DNA of 64,000 bases from Candidatus Termititenax sp. (GTDB taxonomy: Bacteria; Margulisbacteria; Riflemargulisbacteria; GWF2-35-9; DYQY01). Both the position numbers and the translations under genes were made by a program. The notes below the pieces were generated by a model. It was not told the origin of the DNA. It was given only the letters and a program-made list of their open reading frames with translations, and searched no databases. Every line of letters begins with the position of its first letter. Position 1 is the stretch's first letter. The stretch covers positions 88,277-152,276 of the forward strand of contig DYQY01000005.1 in assembly GCA_020719045.1 (NCBI GenBank). Direction: 5' to 3'. Below, in pieces: positions 26,689-28,568 of the stretch.

Positions 26689-27306
26689 TTGGCTCCATTT
26701 AAATATTTAAAAAAATGTTATGCTAATTCTTTATGTGAATCTGGCATGATTCGTCTTGGTACATTATATGAGTATCGGGATACTGAGAGGTATGGGAATA
26801 ATATAGGTGATAAATATGAAGGAACAGGCGGGAAACAGTGGAATCTAAACGGTGAAACATATGGTGGAAATCAATTACCAGAAAAAGTTAAACAAATAGG
26901 GAGAATTAGAGTATATTCTTCTTTAAAAGGTGATGGTTCTATAGTATTTAGTGAGACTTGTCCTAATTTTTATATTTATTCAGTTTGTGCAACATTTTTT
27001 GATTCTGTCTCAGACTTTATGGATCCGGAATACGATTCTTGTGTTGAAATTTTAAATCAAGAGCTGTTTGCTGCAATAGTTACAAAAGAGTTAGACTTGC
27101 CTTTTTTGCATTGGTCTCCGTGTAAATATCAAAATCGTATTAAGAATATTTTTGACGATGGAATAATTGATTATTCAGTTATTAAGGAAACAAAATATGT
27201 ACAACAGAATGAGGTTAGAGGGATTTGGGGTCCAATAGCTAGTCAAGAAAAAGCAAGGATACTTTCAGTTCCAGAAATTGCTCAATTTTGTAAAAGAAAA
27301 TATTAG
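26689..27306 (+). CDS. hypothetical protein (GTLYEYRD...EGTGGKQ type)
   Basis: 205 aa, TTG start with SD gagaagg, follows the preceding gene by 40 nt. Confidence 0.7.
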   Translation: MAPFKYLKKCYANSLCESGMIRLGTLYEYRDTERYGNNIGDKYEGTGGKQWNLNGETYGGNQLPEKVKQIGRIRVYSSLKGDGSIVFSETCPNFYIYSVCATFFDSVSDFMDPEYDSCVEILNQELFAAIVTKELDLPFLHWSPCKYQNRIKNIFDDGIIDYSVIKETKYVQQNEVRGIWGPIASQEKARILSVPEIAQFCKRKY

Positions 27307-27319
27307 TTATTTAATTGCT

Positions 27320-27538
27320 GGCTGAGCAACTGTTTGAACGAATTAAAATTGTAGAAATTTTGAAATCATTTAACGACAATTTATCAGAATAGTATAGTTT
27401 AGCAATTCTCCCGAAGGTTGAATTGTTTGTACTGGAAATAGTAATAGCTCACAGGGTGATGAAAAATTTTCCAAATTTAAATGAGTGAGTTTTGCGAAGT
27501 CTTGATTTTTGAGTTACTTTTTATCAAGAAAAAGTAAC
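27320..27538. repeat. dispersed structured element, copy B
   Basis: Shares CAAYTGTTTGARCGAATTA and GAGTTTTGNNAAGTCTTGATTTTTG plus terminal hairpin GTTACTTTTT-ATCAAG-AAAAAGTAAC with copy A at 53951-54145. Confidence 0.75.
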
Positions 27539-27542
27539 AAAG

Positions 27543-27579
27543 ATTATTTTTTGTCTAAGAAGCTCTGTAATATCTGTGT
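27543..27579. repeat. direct repeat of the ruvX 3' end (copy 1)
   Basis: Exact 37-bp match to 28166-28202 (41/42 over 42 bp). Confidence 0.9.
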
Positions 27580-27631
27580 AGCTTTAAACCACCTAGAATT
27601 ATTGACGCTTTATTATTTATTATTTTATTTA

Positions 27632-27660
27632 TTGACCTAATGTTCGTTTTATACTAAAAT
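27632..27660 (+). promoter_or_regulatory. candidate promoter of ORF6N gene
   Basis: TTGACC-N17-TAAAAT, then 6 nt to ATG 27667. Confidence 0.6.
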
Positions 27661-27666
27661 ATATTT

Positions 27667-28164
27667 ATGGATATTATAGTTCCTAAGGAAGTAATTGAGT
27701 CAAGAATATACTTGATAAGAGGGAGTAAGGTCATGCTTGATAGAGGCCTTGCTGAGCTTTACCAAGTCGAGACAAGGACGTTAAATCAGTCTGTTAAAAG
27801 AAATATTAGTAGGTTTCCTGAAGATTTTATGTTTCAGTTAACAGATAAAGAGTTTTCTAACTTGAAATCACAATTTGTGATTTCAAGTTGGGGAGGAGCT
27901 AGAACATTACCTTTTGTTTTTACAGAGCATGGAGTAGCAATGCTTTCTAGTGTACTGAGAAGCGAAAGGGCAGTTCAGATAAATATCCAGATTATGCGTG
28001 CTTTTACAAAATTAAGAGAAATGATGAAAAGTCATAAGGAATTGTTGGATAAAGTTAATGAGTTAGAAAAAAGGTATGATTATAATTTTCAAATAGTTTT
28101 TGAAGCAATTGACCAGTTGCTGGCTGTGCCAGATAAAAATGTAATGAAAATAGGGTTTATTTAA
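27667..28164 (+). CDS. ORF6N domain-containing DNA-binding protein
   Basis: VIESRIYLIRGSKVMLDRGLAELYQVETRTLNQSVKRN...FPEDFMFQLT...LPFVFTEHGVAMLSSVLRSERAVQINIQIMRAF. Confidence 0.9.
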   Translation: MDIIVPKEVIESRIYLIRGSKVMLDRGLAELYQVETRTLNQSVKRNISRFPEDFMFQLTDKEFSNLKSQFVISSWGGARTLPFVFTEHGVAMLSSVLRSERAVQINIQIMRAFTKLREMMKSHKELLDKVNELEKRYDYNFQIVFEAIDQLLAVPDKNVMKIGFI

Positions 28165-28165
28165 T

Positions 28166-28202
28166 ATTATTTTTTGTCTAAGAAGCTCTGTAATATCTGT
28201 GT
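28166..28202. repeat. direct repeat of the ruvX 3' end (copy 2, in the intact gene)
   Basis: Exact 37-bp match to 27543-27579; covers the ruvX stop and last 12 codons. Confidence 0.9.
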
Positions 28203-28568
28203 TGCTTCTAAAGCGTCTTTGATTTCTCTTTGTTTTTTTTGATTTATACCTTGAGCTATTAGTTGTTTACCAACGAAGGATGAAGTTAGCCTTTCGTCTT
28301 GGAAGATGATTGGAACAGTTACATGCTTTTCCAGTTCTGCTTTAAACTCTTTAACAAGTCCAGTCATAGCAGTTTCGTTGCCTTTTAATGCTCTAGGTAA
28401 ACCAAGCACTATTGATTCTATGGTTTCTTCTTCAAGTATTTCTTTGATTTTAGTAAATGCTTTGTTCGGTTCTATTTTCCCATAAGGAAAAGCGATTGAT
28501 TTAAACGGATCAGATAAAGCAATCCCAATATATTTTGTCCCAAAATCTAATCCCAACACTTTTTTCAT
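28167..28568 (-). CDS. ruvX: Holliday junction resolvase RuvX (YqgF)
   Basis: LGLDFGTKYIGIALSDP, FQDERLTSS, DALEATQILQSFL. Confidence 0.93.
   Translation of the reverse strand: MKKVLGLDFGTKYIGIALSDPFKSIAFPYGKIEPNKAFTKIKEILEEETIESIVLGLPRALKGNETAMTGLVKEFKAELEKHVTVPIIFQDERLTSSFVGKQLIAQGINQKKQREIKDALEATQILQSFLDKK

Follow-up and report, generated by a model that had tools for sequence, protein, structure and literature searches.

Our results suggest that the 623-bp unit lying between two copies of the end of ruvX is probably a horizontally acquired ORF6N cassette that bears the tail of its target gene. Its cargo would be a helix-turn-helix protein that, as a dimer, binds a palindrome located in its own gene. 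The palindrome inside the ORF6N open reading frame is the most telling feature of the locus, and it is a larger result than the repeat that encloses it. In the following, the window refers to the whole 64-kb stretch of DNA that was analysed, and the coordinates of its features are collected in Table 1.

Table 1. Features of the window, followed by comparable ORF6N loci and upstream palindromes in other sequences
Feature	Position or genome	Strand	Basis or detail
About 4 kb separating ruvX from mltG in this genome	24113..28166	.	Sister-family comparison
Dispersed repeat (element B) adjoining the displaced tail	27344..27540	.	Includes TTACTTTTT-AAAAAGTAA hairpin
Displaced copy of the ruvX 3' end	27543..27579	.	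Exact over 37 bp; similarity over 27540-27588
Sigma-70-like promoter (TTGACC-17-TAAAAT) ahead of ORF6N	27632..27660	+	Consensus match only
ORF6N gene, 165 aa	27667..28164	+	PF10543, E=1.3e-36; convergent with ruvX
Predicted helix-turn-helix, codons 25-45	27739..27801	+	AlphaFold model; covariation
Residue 37, Arg	27775-27777	+	Coupled to base -7
Residue 41, Gln	27787-27789	+	Coupled to inner bases
31-bp perfect palindrome AACTTGAAATCACAA-T-TTGTGATTTCAAGTT in ORF6N coding sequence	27859..27889	.	
Second 37-bp copy, ruvX stop and last 12 codons	28166..28202	.	ruvX on minus strand
ruvX, 133 aa, target gene, intact	28167..28568	-	Pfam RuvX PF03652, E=2.3e-35
ORF6N at ilvD 3' end	G011		41-bp repeat
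ORF6N at proB 3' end	G050		42-bp repeat
ORF6N at trxB 3' end	G031		106-bp repeat
ORF6N at pyrE 5' end	G046		104-bp repeat
ORF6N with intergenic repeat	G028		70-bp identical repeat
Palindromes upstream of ORF6N starts	L135:2765 and 5219; L106:1814; L243:2915; L231:1091; L323		L323: about 14 bp before start

The arrangement of the locus agrees with the original prediction in its main points, namely an exact 37-bp duplication, a second copy formed by the stop and last 12 codons of ruvX, and a single ORF6N gene between the copies. In a sequence comparison across the 64-kb window, the two copies were identical and no further copy was found when up to 3 mismatches were allowed. At the composition of the window, about 6e-12 exact 37-mer pairs would be expected by chance in 64 kb. 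When the repeat was extended, 43/45 positions matched without gaps (27540-27584 and 28163-28207), while a gapped alignment of the two tails reached 94% identity over 50 columns. Homology ends shortly beyond 45 bp, and an extension to about 110 columns was discarded as weak, AT-rich, and not convincing. The enclosed gene scores 125.2 bits against the PF10543 profile, for which the curated cut-off is 27.8, and is thus a member of the ORF6N family. It is the only gene in the unit of about 0.6 kb, with no integrase beside it, and its TAA stop falls 2 bp short of the ruvX stop, making a near-exact junction. The promoter of its own that had been proposed for this gene does match the sigma-70 consensus, but such sites are at least as common in shuffled sequence as in the real sequence.

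The surroundings of the unit also differ from those in the sister family. Specifically, ruvX and mltG are adjacent in five sister-family genomes, while the gap between them here contains a methyltransferase, a Na/Ca exchanger, two unknown ORFs, a dispersed repeat, the displaced tail, and the ORF6N gene. The dispersed repeat is the structured element B that had been noted beside the displaced copy. It does adjoin that copy, but it belongs to a repeat family: a query with positions 27300-27600 matched this genome at 14 places and the congener at 9, mostly in element B. Because it is dispersed, and lies on the other side of ruvX in the congener, element B was ruled out as part of the unit. One repeat of this type is found in the congener between alaS and ruvX.

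That congener, G001, was the only one compared, and its ruvX protein is 89% identical to that of the window. At the 3' end of its ruvX, another convergent gene stands in the place of ORF6N, with a stop that overlaps the ruvX stop. The 234-aa product had no Pfam or NCBIfam match, and no NCBIfam model matched in a scan of three proteins. The first 35-39 codons of this gene (L036:9897-10598) are common to four loci (L147-L150), three of them in G001 and one in the genome of the window, which suggests that the gene belongs to a family with a conserved 5' end. A diverged ruvX tail occurs at the end of G001 contig C120, on the side of the Na/Ca exchanger, and ruvX itself is on a separate contig; we infer that these two contigs face each other. 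The original prediction had held that a relative without ORF6N that still carried both repeats would speak against insertion. G001 does have the displaced tail, but it lies across a contig break and with a different insert in place. A ruvX search of the GTDB collection returned distant homologues only (27-36% identity) and no nearer empty site, and the genomes compared, some of which are fragmentary assemblies, gave no near-relative evidence for an empty ruvX site.

Gene-end insertion with a duplicated tail and no integrase, as first read from this locus, is a design that recurs in relatives. ORF6N genes were present in 43/55 phylum genomes searched. Direct repeats bridge 31 of the 122 unique ORF6N genes having enough flank, compared to 12/447 control ORFs (p 1e-13), and 13/122 were still bridged when tandem-ORF6N repeats were left out (p 6e-4). 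A search for further ORF6N genes with duplicated gene ends, which the original prediction had recommended, found them at ilvD, proB, trxB, and pyrE, with duplications of about 40-110 bp. In addition, an identical 70-bp direct repeat (L101:1136-1205 and 1894-1963) surrounds an ORF6N gene beside what by eye is a tRNA-like gene, and this insertion may be the most recent of the set. Uninterrupted sites were found in relatives for ilvD, which is directly followed by ilvB, without ORF6N, in G024, G051, and G035; at ruvX, the sole congener carries another insert. Furthermore, G048, a member of another genus, has a different single convergent gene together with a displaced ilvD tail. ORF6N is thereby ruled out as the sole cause of the repeats, given that other single genes occupy the same position at ruvX in G001 and at ilvD in G048. 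Mobility is thus not special to ORF6N, and cassette exchange at gene ends is not limited to this family. At the same G011 locus that carries ORF6N at ilvD, there is an ORF (L117:2885-3255) whose first nine residues match the start of ilvB (MEISGAQAL) and whose remainder looks, by eye, HEPN-like, which suggests another insertion that captured a gene start.

The origin of the duplicated tails can be read from the way in which the copies differ. Across five informative comparisons, differences at codon positions 1/2/3 numbered 7/9/48 (p 1e-11). The copies therefore diverged while both were coding, and they did so in different genomes, meaning that they are homologous gene ends from separate sources rather than the outcome of tandem duplication and decay. 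This codon-position bias rules out duplication of the target followed by decay in five cases, and with differences mainly at third positions, the tandem duplication that had been offered as the alternative is disfavoured. The ruvX copies are nearly identical and, taken by themselves, would fit a recent slippage duplication of the ruvX tail, with ORF6N either arriving afterwards or evolving between the copies. Such a history is nevertheless extremely unlikely when set against the third-position divergence in five homologous cases, the empty ilvD sites without ORF6N, and the near-exact junctions at stop or start codons.

In two cases the paired tails also bear on which copy was imported. The displaced ilvD tail of G048 agrees with that of G011 at 39/48 and with its own intact tail at 33/48, while the intact tail agrees with G019 at 44/48. 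Similarly, the displaced tail of G011 agrees with G051 at 39/48 and with its own intact tail at 36/48. On these comparisons, the displaced ilvD tail would be foreign and the intact ilvD resident, clearly in G048 and weakly in G011. It had been proposed that the unit brought its own replacement ruvX tail; in both ilvD cases it is instead the displaced copy that appears foreign, and the ruvX copies are too alike to tell foreign from resident. Where cargo and target gene are convergent, the foreign tail is found beyond the cargo. This permuted order points to a circle, or to an exchange of equivalent effect between repeats.

We propose that an ORF6N gene moves together with a short segment homologous to a target gene's end, and that this segment would recombine with the resident ruvX 3' end by way of an intermediate that is circular or permuted. 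The outcome would be an intact gene at one end of the insert and a displaced tail at the other, an arrangement that resembles both attL/attR sites and a long target duplication. The enzyme involved could be the RecA of the host or an integrase supplied in trans. Yet an argument can be made that no dedicated mobile unit is needed. A linear foreign fragment with an accessory gene could enter by recombining homologously at the gene end and joining illegitimately at its other end, a process known from three naturally competent species and, with low efficiency, from conjugation in E. coli (PMC3240628). The coding-type divergence of the copies, the varying length of the repeats (41-106 bp), and the diversity of the cargo all favour this possibility. 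However, a colinear fragment does not give the permuted order, in which the foreign tail lies beyond the cargo in convergent cases. The re-entry points are also concentrated at distances of up to about 110 bp from gene ends, although selection against larger repeats could explain that clustering. We regard entry as a linear fragment as possible, though unlikely.

It is rather improbable, in our judgement, that the repeats are the attL and attR of a tyrosine-recombinase element, with an integrase supplied in trans or a larger element reduced to ORF6N. In its favour, the gene regains its 3' end along with an identity block; the comparable block at icd can be up to about 250 bp long (PMC10111431). 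The genome also has two tyrosine recombinase genes (PF00589, on contigs C4 and C6), but their number and size are as expected for host Xer proteins. No integrase lies in or near the unit, and neither an integrase nor a shared core motif was seen at the ruvX, ilvD, proB, trxB, and pyrE repeats. Furthermore, one would hardly expect several elements all to have shrunk to one gene while keeping both repeats. A cassette that imports the tail of its target gene remains the reading we prefer.

The cargo gene of this putative cassette contains a perfect 31-bp palindrome, AACTTGAAATCACAATTTGTGATTTCAAGTT (27859-27889). At up to 3 mismatches, the only match to its 25-bp core in the genome is its own site, which rules the palindrome out as an operator used elsewhere in the genome. 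A palindrome is found at the same place among 116 ORF6N genes, mostly centred 15-17 codons before an FTE motif, and in 90/116 its score is above that of all 100 synonymous shuffles. The mean score is 10.5, compared to 4.2 in shuffles and 4.0 in the neighbouring region, and about one-quarter of the ORF6N genes are without a significant palindrome. The sequences differ between genes while the arms covary: in 111 genes, the variable arm positions ±4, 5, 10, 11, and 12 pair in 93-98%, as opposed to about 36-48% if they were independent. Twelve genes read the palindrome in a different frame (LVTNCDRF versus SQIVTSS is one example), so the DNA is kept even where the peptide is not. The majority of the phage and plasmid ORF6N genes examined carry the palindrome as well. 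Two tandem palindromes occur in ORF6N genes of L090 (two genes), L108, L127, and L181; the inner bases differ in several of them, as if specificity were being exchanged. Elsewhere in the genome of the window, a truncated second ORF6N gene (L037:4524-4877, on contig C28) keeps its palindrome (TTGATGTTCCATTTTGGAACTTCAA) and lies near a DNA cytosine methyltransferase-like gene.

The bases of the palindrome can be predicted from another part of the protein. When protein columns outside the palindrome were scanned for information about its bases, residue 41 was associated with the inner bases, residue 37 with bases 7-9, and residues 76-80 with the outer bases. Among the phylum genes, residue 41 predicts the inner base pairs in 104/109 (111 genes were counted, two rows being gapped at this residue). 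Gln41 accompanies CA in 45/45 genes, Lys41 accompanies TC in 23/23, and Glu41 accompanies CG in 23/23, while Arg41 with GC (13/18) is less strict than the other three. Similarly, Lys37 occurs with G at -7 in 60/60. The window gene obeys the code, with Gln41 and CA, and with Arg37 and A at -7. Held-out phage genes, and held-out genes on plasmids of Bacteroidota, Campylobacterota, Pseudomonadota, Fusobacteriota, and Bacillota, behaved in the same way, residue 41 being correct on at least one arm in 56/56 and on both arms in 52/56. In a phylogeny from which the helix, palindrome, and wing columns had been left out, residue 41 and the inner bases underwent 53 changes each; among the supported independent pairs, the counts of concordant and discordant ones were 9/0 for Q, 8/0 for K, and 7/0 for E. 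The pairing of Gln with A, Glu with C, and Lys or Arg with G is familiar helix-base chemistry.

In the AlphaFold model (pLDDT 81), residues 36-45 form the second helix of the helix-turn-helix and include residues 37, 38, and 41, while the residues coded by the palindrome lie at a helix end and in a low-confidence loop. A long coiled coil spans residues 100-152. A PDB sequence search for ORF6N gave nothing meaningful and no solved relative, and the best Foldseek matches, to Ski/Sno/Dachshund domains and MarR proteins (all E > 0.02), point to a helix-turn-helix-like fold in general terms only.

A palindrome might also be maintained without protein binding, either because it forms a hairpin in the mRNA or because quasi-palindrome (template-switch) repair preserves it. 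The window palindrome folds strongly as RNA (-23.7 kcal/mol, z -7.5), and template-switch repair can copy one palindrome arm into the other. But neither process can explain how a helix residue about 27 codons upstream predicts palindrome bases in phylum and held-out genes alike, or why the pairings show the chemistry typical of helix-base contacts. Both leave the palindromes ahead of ORF6N starts unexplained, and G-U pairs, which bear on a hairpin, are without enrichment at most positions. We therefore consider it very unlikely that the palindrome is kept in either of these ways.

Taken together, the covariation between helix residues and palindrome places a cognate palindromic site, as a computational result, in the gene of the protein itself. 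ORF6N proteins very probably bind the palindrome inside their own coding sequence, and this self-recognition is strongly supported by coevolution. The cargo would be a helix-turn-helix protein of the dimer type whose recognition helix specifies the inner base pairs through residue 41 and base ±7 through residue 37, with residues 76-80 going with the outer bases.

Autoregulation is the likeliest use of the palindrome, in our inference. A minority of ORF6N genes have an ORF6N-type palindrome just upstream of the start codon, which favours an operator role. The specificity of this upstream site equals that of the internal one in L231, L243, and L323 and differs from it in L232, L235, L245, and the second gene of L135; no upstream palindrome precedes the window gene. 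An operator located inside a bare open reading frame would travel wherever the gene lands, and paralogues whose palindromes differ would come under separate control. Autoregulation of this kind would be well matched to a gene that arrives at gene ends as no more than an ORF. Alternatively, self-recognition and mobility could be one mechanism, in which ORF6N acts on its own palindrome and so drives copying, excision, or replacement at gene ends. A direct part for the palindrome in movement is conceivable but lacks support, and we hold such a single mechanism to be quite doubtful. If it operates, ORF6N genes would be one-gene selfish elements with the recognition site inside their sole ORF, would change specificity by swapping helix and palindrome together, and would act on incoming or paralogous copies too.

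ORF6N genes are widespread in phages, plasmids, and bacterial genomes, yet they form an uncharacterised family with hardly any literature. The covariation would give them a concrete role, the sequence-specific binding of a palindrome in their own gene, with residue 41 serving as a readable four-letter recognition code. It is unusual for a DNA site to be protein code and at the same time the target of that same protein, and this dual use explains the high variability of that stretch of the protein. More generally, the recurrence of single genes with imported tails points to a common entry route for small accessory genes into conserved operons.

Set beside what has been described, the window gene is a plain member of its family (PF10543), with the domain, the coiled coil, and a conserved RIGF-like end. 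The palindrome within the coding sequence and the helix recognition code set it apart from ORF6N proteins as described so far; we found no description of them among 5.39 million open-access papers, although absence there is not proof of novelty. Like the autoregulatory helix-turn-helix repressors of phages and plasmids, the product is a predicted helix-turn-helix dimer with a palindromic site inside its own gene or close to it. Unlike the site of those repressors, that of ORF6N lies about 200 nt inside the coding sequence, codes for part of the protein, and is kept across the family even though its sequence varies. Integron cassettes were also considered, an idea that arose from ORF6N arrays spaced 500-650 bp. 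They were provisionally set aside: no shared boundary site was seen beyond the conserved ends of ORF6N itself, and the boundary repeats came from unrelated gene ends, with no common site of the attC kind visible by inspection.

Two kinds of insertion come closer. Islands of tyrosine integrases restore the 3' end of the protein-coding genes icd and fis (PMC10111431), and the unit resembles them in its flanking direct repeats, with an identity block at the 3' end of a gene that is restored and still functional. It differs from them in its size of about 0.6 kb, in having no integrase within the element, and in showing no shared core motif. Restriction-modification genes of Helicobacter pylori, to the extent that the work of Nobusato et al. 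(2000) is represented in PMC1643837 and PMC2749054, have likewise inserted with long target duplication. As in those accounts, a single accessory gene or module is here flanked by a long direct duplication of the target, without a transposase, although the cargo is ORF6N or another single gene and not a restriction-modification system. Origin from one target sequence may also separate the two: the ruvX copies are near-identical, whereas in five other cases the copies have diverged in the manner of coding sequence, such that at least one of them was imported and not duplicated on the spot, as compared with the H. pylori insertions as those sources present them.
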